64,000 bases of DNA, taken from positions 49,547 through 113,546 of IMG/VR virus record IMGVR_UViG_3300017971_000218, one strand, 5' to 3'. Made by a program: the position numbers and the translations under genes. The notes below the pieces were generated by a model that was not told where the DNA came from, made no database searches, and saw only the letters and a program-made list of their open reading frames with translations. This document shows, one piece after another, positions 50,851-56,022 of the stretch. Within the stretch, counting starts at the first letter, position 1, and each line of letters begins with the position of its first letter. Origin of the DNA: a virus.

Positions 50851-50926
50851 TGGAGCGTCCACTCGGAATCGCACCGAGACCCACTGGTTGGAAGCCAGTG
50901 ATGCTACTGTTAAACACCACGGACGC
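50851..50926 (-). tRNA. tRNA-Gly(TCC)
   Basis: The acceptor GCGTCCG pairs with TGGACGC, followed by T73 and an encoded CCA. Anticodon arm ACTGG-CTTCCAA-CCAGT gives TCC. T-loop is TGCGATT (G55) and D-loop carries AG in place of GG. Confidence 0.93.
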
Positions 50927-50933
50927 TAATGAG

Positions 50934-51006
50934 AGCATCTACCGGGACTTGAACCCGAACCTCGACGTTGGCAACGTCGTGTGCTACCGTTGAACACCAT
51001 AGACGC
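50934..51006 (-). tRNA. tRNA-Gly(GCC)
   Basis: Acceptor GCGTCTA/TAGATGC, anticodon arm CGACG-TTGCCAA-CGTCG (GCC), T-loop TTCAAGT with GG in the D-loop. T73; CCA not encoded. Confidence 0.93.
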
Positions 51007-51008
51007 AG

Positions 51009-51146
51009 TTAATCAAGCCAGTCTTCAATCTTTGCCCATAGGCGGTCAAACCAGTTGGGCTGAGGATAATGAAATTCAAAATACTCCGCAGCATAGTACT
51101 TAGCTGGGTCTATCTTGGGCTGCGGGATATCTTTCTCTAAGATCAT
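51009..51146 (-). CDS. 45-residue hypothetical protein between tRNAs
   Basis: From ATG 51146 a frame of 45 residues begins MILEKDIPQPKIDPAKYY and ends in NWFDRLWAKIEDWLD. The C-terminus is amphipathic and Trp-rich. An AGG lies upstream of the start. It fills the only gap between tRNA-Gly and tRNA-Trp, and protein-like composition supports a real gene. No function is known. Confidence 0.55.
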   Translation of the reverse strand: MILEKDIPQPKIDPAKYYAAEYFEFHYPQPNWFDRLWAKIEDWLD

Positions 51147-51166
51147 ATTTCTAACCTAAAAGGTTA

Positions 51167-51240
51167 TGGCAGGGCGACAAGGAATCGAACCTTGAGCCGC
51201 GGTTTTGGAAACCGCCATGTTACCATTACACCATCACCCT
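51167..51240 (-). tRNA. tRNA-Trp(CCA)
   Basis: Acceptor AGGGTGA/TCGCCCT, anticodon arm GCGGT-TTCCAAA-ACCGC (CCA), G73 and encoded CCA. T-loop TTCGATT with GG in the D-loop. Confidence 0.93.
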
Positions 51241-51241
51241 A

Positions 51242-51319
51242 TGGGTCACAGAGAGGGACTCGCACCCTCAACCTTCGCATTCACAGTGCGATACTCTAAC
51301 TAGTTGAGCTATCTGTGAC
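51242..51319 (-). tRNA. tRNA-His(GTG) with encoded G-1
   Basis: Anticodon arm TCGCA-CTGTGAA-TGCGA gives GTG. G-1 is encoded and faces C73, followed by encoded CCA. T-loop TGCGAGT (G55) with A18-G19 in the D-loop. Confidence 0.93.
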
Positions 51320-51325
51320 ATCGAG

Positions 51326-51397
51326 CGCCGGATCGAGGACTTGCACCCCGCTCTCATGCTTACAAGGCGCGTATTCTACTTGATGAACTAATCCGGC
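51326..51397 (-). tRNA. tRNA-Thr(TGT)
   Basis: Acceptor GCCGGAT/ATCCGGC, loop CTTGTAA gives TGT. One C-A mismatch is in the anticodon stem. T-loop TGCAAGT (G55), AG in the D-loop. G73; CCA not encoded. Confidence 0.85.
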
Positions 51398-51405
51398 ATA
51401 TATTA

Positions 51406-51480
51406 TGGCGGTCCTACGGAGACTTGCACTCCGTGCTCAGGATCGACAGTCCTGTATGTTACTCGTTACACCATAAGACC
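51406..51480 (-). tRNA. tRNA-Asp(GTC)
   Basis: Anticodon arm CAGGA-CTGTCGA-TCCTG gives GTC. G73 and encoded CCA. T-loop TGCAAGT (G55) with A18-G19 in the D-loop. Confidence 0.93.
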
Positions 51481-51592
51481 GATTGGAAGCGGTTTCTACG
51501 GTGAGTGGCTCCACATAGACTCACATACCTAGTCATATGCCTAGCTAGCGGTAAGCTTATCGAGTCTGACCGTTTCCACGGCTTCCGTGTTA
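51481..51592 (-). ncRNA. Putative structured RNA in the tRNA cluster
   Basis: This 112-base gap between tRNA-Asp and tRNA-Pro has no reading frame but strong pairing. GGAAGC near one end pairs with GCTTCC at the other, ACGGT pairs with ACCGT inside it, and AGACTC with GAGTCT encloses a central loop. GTGAGT-n12-ACTCAC is an alternative helix. It is not a cloverleaf. T4-like phages carry stable RNAs of unknown function in their tRNA clusters, which makes a co-transcribed small RNA plausible. Confidence 0.5.
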
Positions 51593-51663
51593 TCGGGAAT
51601 GAAAGAATCGAACTTTCGCCCCGTGGTCCCAAACCACGTATGCTACCATTATACCAATTCCCG
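51593..51663 (-). tRNA. tRNA-Pro(TGG)
   Basis: Acceptor CGGGAAT/ATTCCCG, anticodon arm CGTGG-TTTGGGA-CCACG gives TGG. T-loop TTCGATT, D-loop GG. A73; CCA not encoded. Confidence 0.93.
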
Positions 51664-51667
51664 TTTA

Positions 51668-51739
51668 TACCCCTGGGTGGAATCGAACCACCACTTTCTG
51701 CTTGTAAGGCAGATACCCTAGCCGTTAGATCACAGGGGT
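51668..51739 (-). tRNA. tRNA-Val(TAC)
   Basis: Acceptor ACCCCTG/CAGGGGT, anticodon arm TCTGC-CTTACAA-GCAGA gives TAC. T-loop TTCGATT, D-loop GG. A73; CCA not encoded. Confidence 0.93.
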
Positions 51740-51740
51740 G

Positions 51741-51816
51741 TGGTACCCCCGGAGAGATTCGAACTCCCATCCTCTGGTTCGTAGCCAGAGATCCTGATCC
51801 GTTAGACGACAGGGGC
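51741..51816 (-). tRNA. tRNA-Arg(ACG)
   Basis: Anticodon arm TCTGG-CTACGAA-CCAGA gives ACG. Encoded CCA follows A73. T-loop TTCGAAT, D-loop GG. Confidence 0.92.
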
Positions 51817-51822
51817 ACATAG

Positions 51823-52011
51823 TTACTTCTTGAAAGCCTTGAGCCACATGATGGACTCTTCCAGCTTTGTGATCGCCAACGCGACCTCGCGGTGGCTTGG
51901 AAGGCGCTTCATAGCCTCAAGCTGAACCTTCAGTTCTCCAATGATTGCGTCCATGATACTTTCTCCATAATATGGATTGCCTGGAATATTCGAACCATGA
52001 GTTTGAGACAT
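51823..52011 (-). CDS. Acb2-like cyclic-nucleotide sponge (anti-CBASS candidate)
   Basis: The 62-residue protein starts MSQTHGSNIPGNPYYG at ATG 52011, with GGGAGAAGAAA upstream. Its last 40 residues include LPSHREVALAITKLEESIMW, a good match to the conserved REx-A-x-TKLEEa-x-W core of Acb2/Vs.4-type proteins (DUF7681). These small hexamers bind cyclic di- and trinucleotides and block CBASS and some Thoeris defence. It sits inside the tRNA cluster, a common place for accessory genes. Assignment rests on the core motif and length. Confidence 0.75.
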   Translation of the reverse strand: MSQTHGSNIPGNPYYGESIMDAIIGELKVQLEAMKRLPSHREVALAITKLEESIMWLKAFKK

Positions 52012-52037
52012 TTTCTTCTCCCGACAAAGTCGGTTAG

Positions 52038-52119
52038 AGCCCCGGGTCAGAATCGAACTGACGATAGCTTGCGCCAGCGGGGTTGCAACCCGCTCCCTTA
52101 CCACTCGGGTCACCAGGGC
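52038..52119 (-). tRNA. tRNA-Cys(GCA) with extended variable arm
   Basis: Acceptor GCCCTGG/CCGGGGC, anticodon arm GCGGG-TTGCAAC-CCCGC gives GCA; T73, the cysteine identity base. The variable region is 14 bases with TGGC-GCAA-GCTA able to pair. CCA not encoded. T-loop TTCGATT. Confidence 0.8.
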
Positions 52120-52122
52120 GGA

Positions 52123-52213
52123 TGGAGGAGGCTGAGAGATTCGAACTCTCACAACGACTCTCGCCGCCTTGCCTGGGTTCGAGCCAGGTGTCCTACCGTT
52201 AGACTAAGCCTCC
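52123..52213 (-). tRNA. tRNA-Ser(CGA)
   Basis: Acceptor GGAGGCT/AGCCTCC, anticodon arm CCTGG-CTCGAAC-CCAGG gives CGA. Long variable arm as in class II tRNAs. T73 is odd for serine. Encoded CCA. Confidence 0.82.
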
Positions 52214-52218
52214 CAAAG

Positions 52219-52305
52219 AGGAAGGTGAGGGACTCGAACCCACAGGACCGTGAAGTCTACCCGAGTAGCAATCGGGCGCAGCTAACCAATATCTGCCTAC
52301 CTTCC
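52219..52305 (-). tRNA. tRNA-Ser(GCT)
   Basis: Acceptor GGAAGGT/ACCTTCC, anticodon arm CCCGA-TTGCTAC-TCGGG gives GCT. Long variable arm. T73; CCA not encoded. Confidence 0.88.
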
Positions 52306-52346
52306 ACGTTGACTGGATGATCGACAACTACAACTGTAAAACATTT

Positions 52347-52556
52347 CTATAGCTTTCTTGTATAATCCCTCTTAGCATCGTCGCCAAGAATACGCGCACC
52401 ATCATCGCTAATGTGCGTCTTAAGAGTGCCGTCAGTATGCGGGCGATGTTGATCGATCCAAGCCGTTACTGACTCTACGGATTCATGTCGTGTACACAGC
52501 GACTCACCGCAGGGGCACTCGTATGTACACCAGTCTAAATCCATGATACACTTCAT
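52347..52556 (-). CDS. Small cysteine-rich hypothetical protein
   Basis: The 69-residue protein begins MKCIMDLDWCTYECPCGES at ATG 52556 (GGAG upstream). Cys10, Cys14, Cys16 and Cys21, in a CxxxCxCxxxxC cluster, may bind zinc. It lies between two tRNA-Ser genes. The family is not recognised. Confidence 0.55.
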   Translation of the reverse strand: MKCIMDLDWCTYECPCGESLCTRHESVESVTAWIDQHRPHTDGTLKTHISDDGARILGDDAKRDYTRKL

Positions 52557-52589
52557 ACTAGTCTCCACGGCGTTAGCCGGTATTCTGAG

Positions 52590-52676
52590 CAGAGGCGGTG
52601 GGACTCGAACCCACGAAGGCTTTTAGACCCCTACCCGGCTTCCAACCGGGTCCCTTAGCCGCTCGGTCACGCCTCT
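52590..52676 (-). tRNA. tRNA-Ser(GGA)
   Basis: Acceptor AGAGGCG/CGCCTCT, anticodon arm CCCGG-TTGGAAG-CCGGG gives GGA. Class II variable arm, G73, no encoded CCA. Confidence 0.93.
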
Positions 52677-52683
52677 ATTGTTC

Positions 52684-52760
52684 TGGTAGACCCAGCAGGA
52701 CTTGCACCTGCAATCTTCGGATTCAGAGTCCGACGTGTTAGCTAATTCCACTATGGGTCT
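52684..52760 (-). tRNA. tRNA-Gln(CTG)
   Basis: Acceptor AGACCCA/TGGGTCT, anticodon arm TCGGA-CTCTGAA-TCCGA gives CTG. A73 and encoded CCA. T-loop TGCAAGT (G55), AG in the D-loop. Confidence 0.92.
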
Positions 52761-52908
52761 ATTTCTTTCGATCACGTAGCATCCAGAATACCCAAGCGAA
52801 AAGTGCCAAGGCACCCACAAGAATAACAACCGACACCCACGGAGGAAACTCGTAGTTGCTCTGTAGGAGTTGGTCGATAACGGGATGTCCGCTTCTTGCA
52901 CCACTCAT
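52759..52908 (-). CDS. 49-residue single-pass membrane peptide
   Basis: The frame from ATG 52908 encodes MSGARSGHPVIDQLLQ, then a hydrophobic segment VSVVILVGALALFAWVFW and a basic end RDRKK. It touches the 5' end of tRNA-Gln. A 27-residue frame ends just before it and could couple translation, since its own ribosome site is poor. Possibly a small holin-like or membrane effector. Confidence 0.5.
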   Translation of the reverse strand: MSGARSGHPVIDQLLQSNYEFPPWVSVVILVGALALFAWVFWMLRDRKK

Positions 52909-53012
52909 ACTACGCAGTCTTAATGCCGTCCCGTATTACCAGGGCGGCGGTAATATTAGCAAAGGTAATTCGGCTCATCATTGTATCACACATTGTTGTC
53001 TCTTTTCTGTTT

Positions 53013-53089
53013 TGGCTCACCCGACGGGATTCGAACCCGTGACCCTCCGGTTAACAGCCGGTGACTCTAGACCACTGAGCTACGGATGA
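53013..53089 (-). tRNA. tRNA-Asn(GTT), copy 1
   Basis: Acceptor TCATCCG/CGGGTGA, G73 and encoded CCA. Loop CTGTTAA gives GTT. T-loop TTCGAAT with GG in the D-loop. Confidence 0.88.
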
Positions 53090-53097
53090 GATCTGTC

Positions 53098-53172
53098 TGG
53101 CTCAAGCGGGTGGACTTGCACCACCGACCCTCCGGGTAACAGCCGGGCGCTCTGCTGCTGAGCTACGCTTGA
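53098..53172 (-). tRNA. tRNA-Asn(GTT), copy 2 with altered elbow
   Basis: Acceptor TCAAGCG/CGCTTGA, G73, encoded CCA. Loop CTGTTAC gives GTT. T-loop TGCAAGT (G55) with A18-G19, unlike copy 1. Confidence 0.88.
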
Positions 53173-53178
53173 ATTGTC

Positions 53179-53255
53179 TGGTCGGATCTCAAGGATTTGC
53201 ACCTTGTCTTCCACGTTATCAGCGTGGCGTGCGGAACTGCCTACACCAAGATCCG
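53179..53255 (-). tRNA. tRNA-Ile(GAT)
   Basis: Acceptor CGGATCT/AGATCCG, anticodon arm CCACG-CTGATAA-CGTGG gives GAT. A73, encoded CCA. T-loop TGCAAAT (G55). Confidence 0.92.
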
Positions 53256-53256
53256 T

Positions 53257-53331
53257 TGGTGGCGCTGTCCGGAATTGCACCGGCGACTCGCGGTCTTCAG
53301 CCGCGTGCTTTACTAATTAAGCTACAGCGCC
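53257..53331 (-). tRNA. tRNA-Phe(GAA)
   Basis: Acceptor GGCGCTG/CAGCGCC, anticodon arm CGCGG-CTGAAGA-CCGCG gives GAA. A73, encoded CCA. T-loop TGCAATT (G55), AG in the D-loop. Confidence 0.93.
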
Positions 53332-53392
53332 GTTGTATTAAAGGGCAAAGAGGAAACTAGTAAGTGACGTCCCTCGCTAGCCTCACCGCGAC

Positions 53393-53464
53393 AGTTGATA
53401 GGTGGATTCGAACCACTTCCCCGGGCATGACCCGGTGCTTTTTCCAGTTAAGCTACTTACCAAC
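53393..53464 (-). tRNA. tRNA with CAT anticodon (Met or Ile2), irregular acceptor
   Basis: Loop GTCATGC gives CAT. GTTGGTA pairs with TATCAAC, but four bases rather than two then precede the D-stem, so the acceptor region carries an insertion. T-loop TTCGAAT, D-loop GG. CCA not encoded. Met versus lysidine-Ile cannot be decided. Confidence 0.65.
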
Positions 53465-53478
53465 CTGCGTCCCTTTTA

Positions 53479-53554
53479 TACCCCAAGGGGGATTTGAACC
53501 CACCATGTCTCCGCCTTGAGAGGGCGGCGTGTTAGCCGATTACACCATTGGGGC
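53479..53554 (-). tRNA. tRNA-Glu(CTC)
   Basis: Acceptor GCCCCAA/TTGGGGT, anticodon arm CCGCC-CTCTCAA-GGCGG gives CTC. T-loop TTCAAAT with one mismatch in its stem. CCA not encoded. Confidence 0.85.
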
Positions 53555-53565
53555 GTCAAACTTCT

Positions 53566-54042
53566 TCACTGAATCGTTACCAAGCGCGGGTAAGACAACC
53601 ACTTCGGTGCCTCCGGCGGTGCCGGATAACCCCACTTGTAATACTCTACGTAAACTTGTACGCACCATTGGGTCCCCCTCAAGCCGGGGTGAATCGTCCC
53701 CTTAAAGAGAGAAAACTCCAGGATGCGAGCCGGGTATTTCAGCTTCAGCCACCGCTGCTGCATCCACATCGTATGATACGGGATGTGGAGAACGCCGATT
53801 CCCGGGAACGCCTGAACGTACTGCTTCTGATACTTGCCGACGAGGAAGATCACCCGCGACGGTGCTGGAGAGCTATACTCGACCAGCGTTGCCTTGACGT
53901 CGGTGGGTCTTCCTGCTACCGCGCCCGTTACAAACAGTTGCGGTCGATACTTGCTTGGATACCAATAGAGATCCTGCGCTGCGGCGCTAGTCGCCAGCAG
54001 TAGAAGAATCAGGATCAAGGATCTTACGAATGTCCTCTTCAT
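53566..54042 (-). CDS. Exported protein with signal peptide
   Basis: The 158-residue protein has a classic signal peptide: MKRTFVRSLILILLLLATSA with cleavage near AAAQD at residue 22. The mature part is about 135 residues and aromatic (YWYPSKYRPQLF, VYVEYYKWGYPAP). It is probably periplasmic or envelope-associated and may affect superinfection or lysis. It overlaps the 48-residue upstream frame by 56 bp. Confidence 0.65.
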   Translation of the reverse strand: MKRTFVRSLILILLLLATSAAAQDLYWYPSKYRPQLFVTGAVAGRPTDVKATLVEYSSPAPSRVIFLVGKYQKQYVQAFPGIGVLHIPYHTMWMQQRWLKLKYPARILEFSLFKGTIHPGLRGTQWCVQVYVEYYKWGYPAPPEAPKWLSYPRLVTIQ

Positions 54043-54133
54043 TGAGAATTATCGCCTTCCCTGGCTCCTCGTTAGAGGCGAGTCTAAGCGCCTCTGCAAG
54101 AAGCTTTTCCGCCTGTTCCTTAGTCAACTTCAT
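53987..54133 (-). CDS. 48-residue helical protein
   Basis: Read from ATG 54133 (GGAGTAGGC upstream), the product begins MKLTKEQAEKLLAEALRLAS and ends DPDSSTAGD. It is acidic and helical. A longer frame upstream runs through tRNA-Ala and is not a gene. Function is unknown. Confidence 0.55.
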   Translation of the reverse strand: MKLTKEQAEKLLAEALRLASNEEPGKAIILNEEDIRKILDPDSSTAGD

Positions 54134-54145
54134 GCCTACTCCATA

Positions 54146-54219
54146 TGGACCGACTGGGAATCGAACCCAGATCTCCGCCGTGCAAAGGCGGCGTGTTAAG
54201 CCGTTGTCACCATCAGCCC
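54146..54219 (-). tRNA. tRNA-Ala(TGC)
   Basis: Acceptor GGGCTGA/TCGGTCC, anticodon arm CCGCC-TTTGCAC-GGCGG gives TGC. T-loop TTCGATT, D-loop GG. A73; CCA not encoded. Confidence 0.92.
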
Positions 54220-54225
54220 GTGTGA

Positions 54226-54298
54226 TACCCGGGGTGGGAGTCGAACCCACAAAATCTGGTTCCTAAGACCAGCGCCTATTCCATTCGGCTACCCGGGC
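54226..54298 (-). tRNA. tRNA with TAG anticodon (Leu), short variable loop
   Basis: Acceptor GCCCGGG/CCCGGGT, anticodon arm CTGGT-CTTAGGA-ACCAG gives TAG (Leu CUA). Variable loop only ATTTT, whereas bacterial tRNA-Leu has a long arm. CCA not encoded. Confidence 0.82.
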
Positions 54299-54303
54299 GT
54301 CTA

Positions 54304-54377
54304 TAGGCTCGGTGAGATTCGAACTCACACTATCCCGGATTTGAGCCGGGTCTCTCTTCCTGTTGGAGTACGAGCCC
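54304..54377 (-). tRNA. tRNA with CAA anticodon (Leu), short variable loop
   Basis: Acceptor GGGCTCG/CGAGCCT, anticodon arm CCCGG-CTCAAAT-CCGGG gives CAA (Leu UUG). Variable loop ATAGT only. T-loop TTCGAAT. CCA not encoded. Confidence 0.82.
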
Positions 54378-54386
54378 AAATTATTT

Positions 54387-54465
54387 TGGTAGGACAGACG
54401 AGAATCGAACTCGACATTGACAGTGGCTTATAAGACCACCCAGGACAACCAGCCCTTTCTGTCCT
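54387..54465 (-). tRNA. tRNA-Ile(TAT)
   Basis: Acceptor AGGACAG/CTGTCCT, anticodon arm GTGGT-CTTATAA-GCCAC gives TAT, which reads AUA directly. A73, encoded CCA. Slightly long (79 bases). Confidence 0.85.
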
Positions 54466-54859
54466 ATAGTTCTACCTCATATGCCGCATACTTGTTCTCG
54501 ATCGCCAGGGTGGTTTTCCCAGCCACCTCATCCTTGGGGATCATGAACATCCTATCTTCGGTCGTAACGACAAATAGGTAGTCGCATGATACTTGGTCAA
54601 ACGTCTTGTGTATCCGCTTCTTTGTAGTTCCGGTCATGGTCTTTAGGCTGACTTCGCTAACGCCATTTGGACGCTTGTACGTTGTAGTCTTTACCTGGAC
54701 CCTAACAAGAGCCCCGCCGAGATCAGCGATTAAGTCGTAATCTTGACTATCAGTCAGCGGGATAGAAACCGTATATCCGTGTCTCGTGAAATAGGCGATA
54801 GCCATGCTCATGCCAACATCGCCACGCTTTTGTGTACTATCTAGTTCCGACCAGTGCAT
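54464..54859 (-). CDS. PD-(D/E)XK endonuclease of the intron-homing type (PF11645-like)
   Basis: The 131-residue protein has KRGDVGMSMAIAYFTRHGY, then DYDLIADLGGALVRVQVKTTT. The Asp of YDLI and the V-Q-V-K element match the PD-(D/E)XK core of I-Ssp6803I-type endonucleases. These cut intron-less tRNA genes or similar targets to spread. It lies between tRNA-Ile and tRNA-Tyr without a visible intron, so it is probably free-standing. Confidence 0.75.
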   Translation of the reverse strand: MHWSELDSTQKRGDVGMSMAIAYFTRHGYTVSIPLTDSQDYDLIADLGGALVRVQVKTTTYKRPNGVSEVSLKTMTGTTKKRIHKTFDQVSCDYLFVVTTEDRMFMIPKDEVAGKTTLAIENKYAAYEVEL

Positions 54860-54876
54860 GTTTGTCTCTCACCTTA

Positions 54877-54957
54877 TGGCGCGACCTGGACTCGAACCAG
54901 GGAGGTCATAGACGCCCGGTTTACAGCCGGGTGCATTCGCCGCTCTGCCACCGCGCC
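54877..54957 (-). tRNA. tRNA-Tyr(GTA)
   Basis: Acceptor GGCGCGG/TCGCGCC, anticodon arm CCCGG-CTGTAAA-CCGGG gives GTA. Variable arm of class II type, A73, CCA not encoded. Confidence 0.93.
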
Positions 54958-54959
54958 TT

Positions 54960-55034
54960 TGGTACTCCCGCCAGGATTTGCACCCGGACCTCAACGCTTA
55001 GGAGGCGAGTATGCGTCTATTACACCACGGGAGT
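54960..55034 (-). tRNA. tRNA-Arg(CCT)
   Basis: Acceptor ACTCCCG/CGGGAGT, loop CTCCTAA gives CCT. Anticodon stem has only three good pairs. T-loop TGCAAAT (G55), AG in the D-loop. A73, encoded CCA. Confidence 0.8.
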
Positions 55035-55035
55035 T

Positions 55036-55112
55036 TGGTACCCCCGGTAGGATTCGAACCCACACTTCATCGGTTAAAAGCCGAGTATGCTTGTCCATTA
55101 CATTACGGAGGC
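55036..55112 (-). tRNA. tRNA-Lys(TTT)
   Basis: Acceptor GCCTCCG/CGGGGGT, loop CTTTTAA gives TTT. T-loop TTCGAAT, D-loop GG. A73, encoded CCA. Confidence 0.9.
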
Positions 55113-55115
55113 ACT

Positions 55116-55193
55116 TGGTACCCCCGCTAGGATTCGCACCTAGATCTCACCGGGTAAGAGCCGGGTATGTTAAACTGTTGACACCACGGAGGC
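55116..55193 (-). tRNA. tRNA-Lys(CTT)
   Basis: Acceptor GCCTCCG/CGGGGGT, loop CTCTTAC gives CTT. T-loop TGCGAAT (G55), A18-G19 in the D-loop, unlike the adjacent tRNA-Lys(TTT). Encoded CCA. Confidence 0.9.
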
Positions 55194-55230
55194 ACATATA
55201 GTCTATGCTAGCCCCCGCCACGGAGGGCTA

Positions 55231-55602
55231 TCAGTCCGGTTTATACCTATACTTTCTCATGTCTGATAGCTTCCTTGGAAAACCCTTTAACACCTGAAAT
55301 TGCTCTTCGACGCAACGCCTGCTCAACGACATCGAGCCGCCGCTCAGGAACATGACGTCCAAATTGTAGTTGGGCGTAAACCCGGTCCAGCCGTACGTGT
55401 CGCTGATGCTGATGACGATACACAGATCGCCGGGCTCAGCATACACGCGTTCTTTCTTGTCAACCAAGCCCGTCAGCGTGACCTGCTTGGTACACTGGAG
55501 CATCATGCCTGCGTGGTGCTGCGGAATGGGCAACACTCCGGAGCACATGAATGCCTTGGGCTCGGTGTCGCGGTCCCTAACCACCCACTGACTGTCTGTC
55601 AT
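55231..55602 (-). CDS. Hypothetical protein
   Basis: The 123-residue protein starts MTDSQWVVRDRDTEPKAF at ATG 55602 and has a mixed fold with cysteines at CSGVL, QCTKQV and RRCVEEQ. GDLCIVISISDTYGW suggests a beta-barrel. Ends RKYRYKPD. It lies between tRNA-Lys(CTT) and the second structured RNA. Family is unknown. Confidence 0.55.
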   Translation of the reverse strand: MTDSQWVVRDRDTEPKAFMCSGVLPIPQHHAGMMLQCTKQVTLTGLVDKKERVYAEPGDLCIVISISDTYGWTGFTPNYNLDVMFLSGGSMSLSRRCVEEQFQVLKGFPRKLSDMRKYRYKPD

Positions 55603-55639
55603 TCCTGTTTCCCTTAAAACGTCCGCAGTACGGGGTCCC

Positions 55640-55800
55640 ACCTAACCGTATCCTGCCAAGAGCCGCGCATAAGTATCTTGACAGCCCGCTTGAGAGATCT
55701 GGACCTCAAGGTAGTTTGGTCCAGCCAATGGTTATCTCTACAAGCCCATCAATTCGTGCTACCTTTCACGCTGCGGTCCTCCGTCTCTCGACGGTGGTGT
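55640..55800 (-). ncRNA. Second putative structured RNA in the tRNA cluster
   Basis: This 160-base gap lacks a gene and can form a long hairpin: GCTTG plus AGAGAT pair with ATCTCT plus CAAGC, with one bulged base. Inside, TGGACC pairs with GGTCCA over a 12-base loop. Upstream on the same strand a 5-bp hairpin with GAGA loop (55781-55794) and CGTG-n8-CACG are also present. The regularity of stems suggests a stable small RNA co-transcribed with the tRNAs. Confidence 0.5.
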
Positions 55801-55802
55801 TT

Positions 55803-55886
55803 TGGTAGCGGCGGTGGGAATCAAACCCACAATGCCCTACGGCGAGTGCTTATGAGACACCCTGCATTACCAAATGCTTCGCCGCT
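55803..55886 (-). tRNA. tRNA with CAT anticodon and a long variable arm
   Basis: Acceptor AGCGGCG/CGCCGCT, loop CTCATAA gives CAT. Variable region of about 14 bases with GCC-GTAG-GGC pairing, a class II layout. T-loop TTTGATT. A73, encoded CCA. Charged with Met or, if modified, another amino acid. Confidence 0.72.
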
Positions 55887-55950
55887 ATTTATCCCGGGGT
55901 GAGTAAAGACAAAACCGGCGGTACCACCATGTTATGCCACCAGAATATCG

Positions 55951-56022
55951 AGATACGGACGGGATTCGAACCCGCAACGCCCGAGTCTGAGTCGGGTATA
56001 TTACCAGTTATACTACCGCCCT
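55951..56022 (-). tRNA. tRNA with CAG anticodon (Leu), weak acceptor stem
   Basis: Anticodon arm CCCGA-CTCAGAC-TCGGG gives CAG (Leu CUG). Short variable loop. Only about four acceptor pairs form (CGG/CCG plus wobble), so it may be damaged. T-loop TTCGAAT. CCA not encoded. Confidence 0.6.

Follow-up and report, generated by a model that had tools for sequence, protein, structure and literature searches.

What kind of protein is encoded by a short open reading frame (ORF) lodged between two tRNA genes of a phage, and does it deserve the name of Acb2-like anti-CBASS gene that a first-pass annotation gave it? The window analysed here is a stretch of 64,000 nucleotides; the whole source record, a viral contig 113,546 bases long, belongs to a phage, and its ORF list, judged by eye, includes terminase, portal-like, RecA-like and replication genes. 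The gene was described as hidden in a tRNA cluster at 51823-52011, and an ORF of 62 codons plus a stop is indeed found there on the minus strand (52011..51823; ATG at 52011, stop codon at 51825-51823), between tRNA-Cys and tRNA-Arg inside a cluster of 30 tRNA genes. The translated product of the long form (62 aa) is MSQTHGSNIPGNPYYGESIMDAIIGELKVQLEAMKRLPSHREVALAITKLEESIMWLKAFKK.

51823..52011, minus strand: ORF, 62-aa long form, Acb2/Tad1 hairpin-family protein (ORF reading and PF24729 match)
52037..52119, minus strand: tRNA-Cys(gca), immediately upstream of the ORF (tRNA calling)
51741..51816, minus strand: tRNA-Arg(acg), immediately downstream of the ORF (tRNA calling)

ARAGORN called 30 tRNA genes (window 50851-56022), which cover all 20 amino acids; plus-strand ORFs overlying tRNAs were not accepted as genes. 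The cluster also holds a PD-(D/E)XK nuclease-like protein (54464-54859; PF11645, E 5.8e-23) with relatives in many large phages. Between 58200 and 64000, the window carries numerous short degenerate repeats, some of them palindromic (CGTTCGGATCCGAACG-like; GTCTCA...TGAGACG-like), and a 40-base repeat with a TTCTACTTCTATTATAGC-like core is present in four copies (60356, 61568, 62804 and 63848), which, read on the minus strand, is a promoter-like element bearing TATAAT. The position beside a tRNA is not general for the hairpin family considered below: a tRNA is found at a distance of 20 bases or less in three of 124 relatives. One of these, an Acb2-type hairpin gene (L137:2725-2931), gives a second case of the family in a tRNA cluster: its 7-kb contig carries 13 tRNAs, one of them 15 bases from the gene.

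Family membership was assessed by the HMM search that the first-pass annotation had proposed, and this search supported it: the 62-aa product matched Pfam PF24729 (Acb2_Tad1_hairpin) with an E-value of 1.5e-6 and 28.7 bits, above the gathering score of 27. The family is present once in the whole record, only at the position of the ORF.

51844..51942, minus strand: PF24729-matched stretch, residues 24-56, profile positions 21-52 of 58 (Pfam profile search)

We also built five subgroup profiles from relatives and scored them against 2000 shuffles of the window protein. Four gave high scores (RF-YH Acb2-type, 36.3 bits; Tad1, 32.2; LGMDL group, 38.0; small proteins, 51.7; shuffles, at most 9.9, n=2000); some relatives in these four subgroups had been retrieved by using the window protein itself as query, which leaves the Pfam score as the independent test. 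The Acb2-proper profile (T4 and PaMx33 only) gave 6.9 bits, hardly over the best shuffle (6.5). The closest solved structures by sequence were Tad1 proteins, weakly (E 0.1-1.2), and PHROGs and NCBIfam searches yielded unnamed or insignificant matches only. Judged from its sequence, the ORF is confirmed as a real gene whose product belongs to the Acb2/Tad1 hairpin family. That the ORF might be spurious or decayed, to which we leave a very slim chance, was set aside: the hairpin core is intact and codons 20-62 resemble the phage's other genes.

The label 'Acb2/Tad1-family hairpin protein' is thereby supported, PF24729 taking in Acb2 as well as Tad1 and a large number of uncharacterised hairpin proteins; the window protein adds an unusually short member to a family that Pfam had already named. 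The label 'Acb2' is too specific, the match being limited to the hairpin core, and 'Acb2', 'hexamer' and 'anti-CBASS' are terms that we infer for this protein. The original wording, 'Acb2-like', thus holds as regards the family and is not borne out as regards what is specific to Acb2: the arm and the C-terminal tail lie outside the match, the N-terminus is predicted to be disordered, and the fold search leads to the Tad1 hairpin.

The relatives bear on which residues matter. A tblastn search of phage records gave weak matches, chiefly to hypothetical proteins, and a scan of viral contigs with the window protein alone found no relative; alignment-based scans were needed, and returned 80 viral and 46 genome loci. 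The relatives form four groups: Acb2-type proteins (F-x-Y-H...); Tad1-type proteins, which have a beta domain and a GVEGTH tail; a group whose tail reads LGMDLKRL...NPYP...PTADGLKL; and small proteins some 45-67 residues long. The motif R-x6-T-[KNH]-[LV]-[EQ] occurs in 124/124 collected relatives, a count in which only the Arg is informative because the scan patterns already demanded T-[KN]-L-[EQ]-E..W. This Arg corresponds to R67 of PaMx33 Acb2, which reportedly, in work by Cao and colleagues in 2024, contacts cyclic trinucleotides.

51889..51891, minus strand: Arg41, equivalent to PaMx33 Acb2 R67; T4 Acb2 has Asp61 there (R-x6-T motif, relatives alignment)
51868..51870, minus strand: Thr48, equivalent to T4 Acb2 T68 and PaMx33 T74 (relatives alignment)

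In T4 Acb2, T68M lowers ligand binding (PMC12657230), and Y8A disrupts cyclic dinucleotide binding (PMC12657218). The conserved P-x-x-R-E...T-K-L-E-E..M-W core on two antiparallel helices is present in the window protein, as judged from the alignment and the AlphaFold2 model. The peptide LPSHREVALAITKLEESIMW (residues 37-56), initially quoted as a match to the central helix-turn of Acb2/Vs.4, does point to the right family; it corresponds to the turn and second helix of the hairpin, not to a central helix-turn of the whole protein. The C-terminus of the window protein comprises 6 residues after Trp56, whereas every collected relative has at least 7. At the other end, MAFFT aligns PYY (Tyr at 14/15) under the conserved Acb2-type aromatic with a deletion of about 7 residues, the Tyr lying outside the Pfam match, in predicted disorder and possibly upstream of the true start.

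A terminase-based search for close phage relatives returned a single contig at 81% (L098) that stops short of the tRNA cluster; the hairpin family is absent from the more distant phages retrieved, and neither this search nor a scan with the cluster ORF 55231-55641 found a close phage relative spanning the locus. Note that the terminase large subunit of this contig (L098:4256-7432) has 1058 aa and its counterpart in the window 701 aa; the additional segment is an intein (Pfam Intein_splicing, LAGLIDADG_3) that the window gene lacks.

The structure of the 62-residue protein was predicted as a single chain with AlphaFold2. The model contains no strand; it places residues 21-60 in blocks of pLDDT 96-98 and leaves the N-terminal arm disordered (pLDDT 47).

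51907..51957, minus strand: predicted hairpin, helix 1 (residues 19-35; AlphaFold2 model)
51829..51891, minus strand: predicted hairpin, helix 2 (residues 41-61; AlphaFold2 model)

When the model was compared with the PDB using Foldseek, the top matches were Tad1 hairpins (E 0.79 and up, TMq 0.44-0.48, about 30% identity), and Acb2/Vs.4 was absent among the best 50 matches listed. In BFVD, the best named matches were mostly Acb2/Tad1 hairpin proteins, including some of 50 and 66-69 residues (best E 0.019). As a control we used L079, a relative that is likewise 62 residues long and in which the Acb2 arm is clear (68.9 bits); its model has helices at 13-32 and 40-61 (pLDDT 92), and its best PDB matches are T4 Vs.4 and Acb2 (probability 0.94-1.00, TMq 0.60-0.76, E above 0.2). 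Since the control finds Vs.4/Acb2 despite E-values above 0.2, it is ranking and TM-score that separate the two proteins: Foldseek E-values are powerless at such a protein size, whereas ranking and TM-score do discriminate. Helical hairpins are a generic fold, and the fold matches of the modelled protein are not significant by E-value; by predicted fold, it is not recognised as Acb2 and resembles the Tad1 hairpin only. The structure prediction suggested at the outset thus returned a helical hairpin and, unlike that of the control, did not retrieve the Acb2/Vs.4 fold.

The length of the protein hinges on its start codon. The 62-residue gene had been credited with a ribosome site of its own; a GGGAG-N6-ATG site does exist at codon 1, and a rival one, GGAG-N8-ATG, at codon 20 makes the start ambiguous.

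51823..51954, minus strand: alternative short form, 43 aa, starting at the internal ATG at codon 20 (GGAG-N8-ATG, Pfam score, GC3)
52012..52033, minus strand: long-form leader, in which a CCGAC-TTT-GTCGG hairpin leads into GGGAG (z -1.1 for the fold, no clear advantage over shuffles)

Both ribosome sites are putative, and a match of this kind is found at 24% of random positions, which makes it weak evidence for either start. Promoter and RNA-fold predictions favour neither start: leader folds have no clear advantage over those of shuffles, and promoter-like sites were fewer than in shuffles. By contrast with the rest of the ORF (GC3 69%) and the phage's long genes (60%), the first 19 codons have a GC3 of 17%, a value this low being reached by 0.4% of the internal stretches of 19 codons and by none of the 33 gene starts compared (0.24-0.74); their synonymous codon usage is marginally low only (p 0.05). 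Moreover, the PF24729 score climbs to 29.8 bits (43 aa) once the first 19 residues are dropped. Taken from the sequence, the evidence leans, though not decisively, towards the 43-residue form.

Does the wider family have a bearing on immune signalling? Three independent cases (L027/L102, L042 and L055) combine an RyR domain (PF02026) and the hairpin in single ORFs, the L055 hairpin scoring 22.4 bits, under the cut-off.

L027:3533-4192, L102:4533-5192, L042:3133-3753 and L055:3557-4192: RyR-hairpin fusion ORFs (PF02026 and hairpin)

The RyR part of these fusions keeps H-x2-W-x21-H-x16-D with a spacing identical to that of RyDEP H75, W78, H100 and D117, the residues through which phage RyDEP binds cADPR signals (PMC13232231); the words 'hairpin' and 'Tad1' are absent from the main text of that paper. 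In Tenacibaculum phage Gundel_1 (L009), the hairpin gene (408-695) is directly followed by a Tad2-like gene (713-979; PF11195, E 1.5e-26), and Tad2-like genes are found among the scanned neighbours of other hairpin genes in 2/140 cases (raw count). These RyR fusions and Tad2-like neighbours link the wider family, at the level of sequence, to immune signals, and concern subgroups other than that of the window protein.

We consider the window protein to be a minimal representative of the Acb2/Tad1 hairpin family, probably working as a cyclic-nucleotide sponge. Each protomer would consist of the two predicted helices, which run antiparallel and span residues 19-35 and 41-61; several such hairpins would assemble as in Acb2 and Tad1, and a cyclic oligonucleotide would be held where protomers meet, via Arg41 and Thr48, so that the signal would be kept away from CBASS or related effectors during infection. 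It is by analogy that we infer oligomerisation, ligand and anti-defence role. A trinucleotide-type site would more likely be retained than a dinucleotide site because the Acb2 N-terminal arm and long C-terminal tail are absent or unrecognisable; that the N-terminal Tyr/Lys arm is unmatched, and that the C-terminus falls short of those of all collected relatives, count against the sponge reading as a whole. Translation may begin at codon 20, giving the hairpin alone. Tentatively, then, one may envisage a 43-residue, hairpin-only sponge working without the Acb2 arm or the Tad1 beta domain; if true, this would point to the trinucleotide-binding hairpin as the ancestral core onto which arm and beta domain were added. 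Should the hairpin by itself bind a cyclic oligonucleotide, the smallest functional unit of Acb2 and Tad1 would be known, and many short 'hypothetical' phage PF24729 proteins would become candidate anti-defence proteins.

Other readings must be weighed against the sponge. That the locus encodes a true compact Acb2, made as the 62-residue form, with Tyr14 (Y-x3-S18) as the conserved N-terminal Tyr and a hexamer binding cyclic di- and trinucleotides, seems to us unlikely. The MAFFT placement of PYY under the aromatic of Acb2-type relatives is in its favour, as are the good GGGAG site at codon 1 and the clear arm of the equally long L079 (68.9 bits). However, the Pfam match begins at profile position 21 and its score rises without the arm, which is predicted to be disordered (pLDDT 47), has its Lys/Arg partner aligned as Ile and is encoded by codons of atypical composition; moreover, Acb2/Vs.4 is absent among the fold matches listed, yet was retrieved for L079.

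It is quite unlikely, in our estimate, that the hairpin serves solely as an oligomerisation or protein-binding module devoid of a nucleotide ligand. The family is very widespread, mostly uncharacterised and fused to several other domains, and the ligand-binding arms are reduced in the window protein, as such a role would have it; but Arg41 and Thr48, the positions linked to ligand binding, lie in the family's most conserved part and are retained. Finally, Tad1 provides the best solved-structure matches by sequence and fold, and its profile scores 32.2 bits, which would fit a Tad1-like hairpin that has lost its beta domain and either binds ADPR-derived Thoeris signals or partners a protein supplying the missing part. 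We regard this as improbable: the gcADPR pocket of Tad1 requires conserved loops outside the hairpin (PMC12043709), which the window protein lacks, and a Tad2-like or RyR gene was sought in the window's own record and none was found.

Compared with known systems, the sponge that we favour shares with Acb2 (T4 Vs.4; PaMx33 gp24; PDB 7UQ2, 8H2X, 8H2J) its Pfam family, the position of the R-x6-T-[KD]-[LI] motif (PaMx33 R67/T74; T4 D61/T68) and the status of a small stand-alone protein without the Tad1 beta domain. Acb2, however, has 88-93 aa with a matched N-terminal arm (Y8 in T4, Y11 in PaMx33) and a C-terminal tail, whereas the window protein has 62 or 43 aa, an unmatched arm and no such tail, and its fold search does not retrieve Acb2. 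In Tad1 (C. botulinum prophage CbTad1, CmTad1; PDB 7UAV, 7UAW, 8KBB), it is the C-terminal hairpin that aligns, making Tad1 the best PDB match by sequence and fold; the window protein differs from it by the absence of the N-terminal beta domain and of the R..R..GVEGTH tail. Small phage PF24729 proteins are alike in size and hairpin: WilliamBoone gp10 (55 aa), L059 (51 aa), L064/L088 (62 aa), L079 (62 aa) and BFVD A0A8S5M953 (50 aa). Among them, L064 and L079, unlike the window protein, are matched over the full domain, arm included, while gp10 of Gordonia phage WilliamBoone has in common with it a YY...S element followed by the hairpin.
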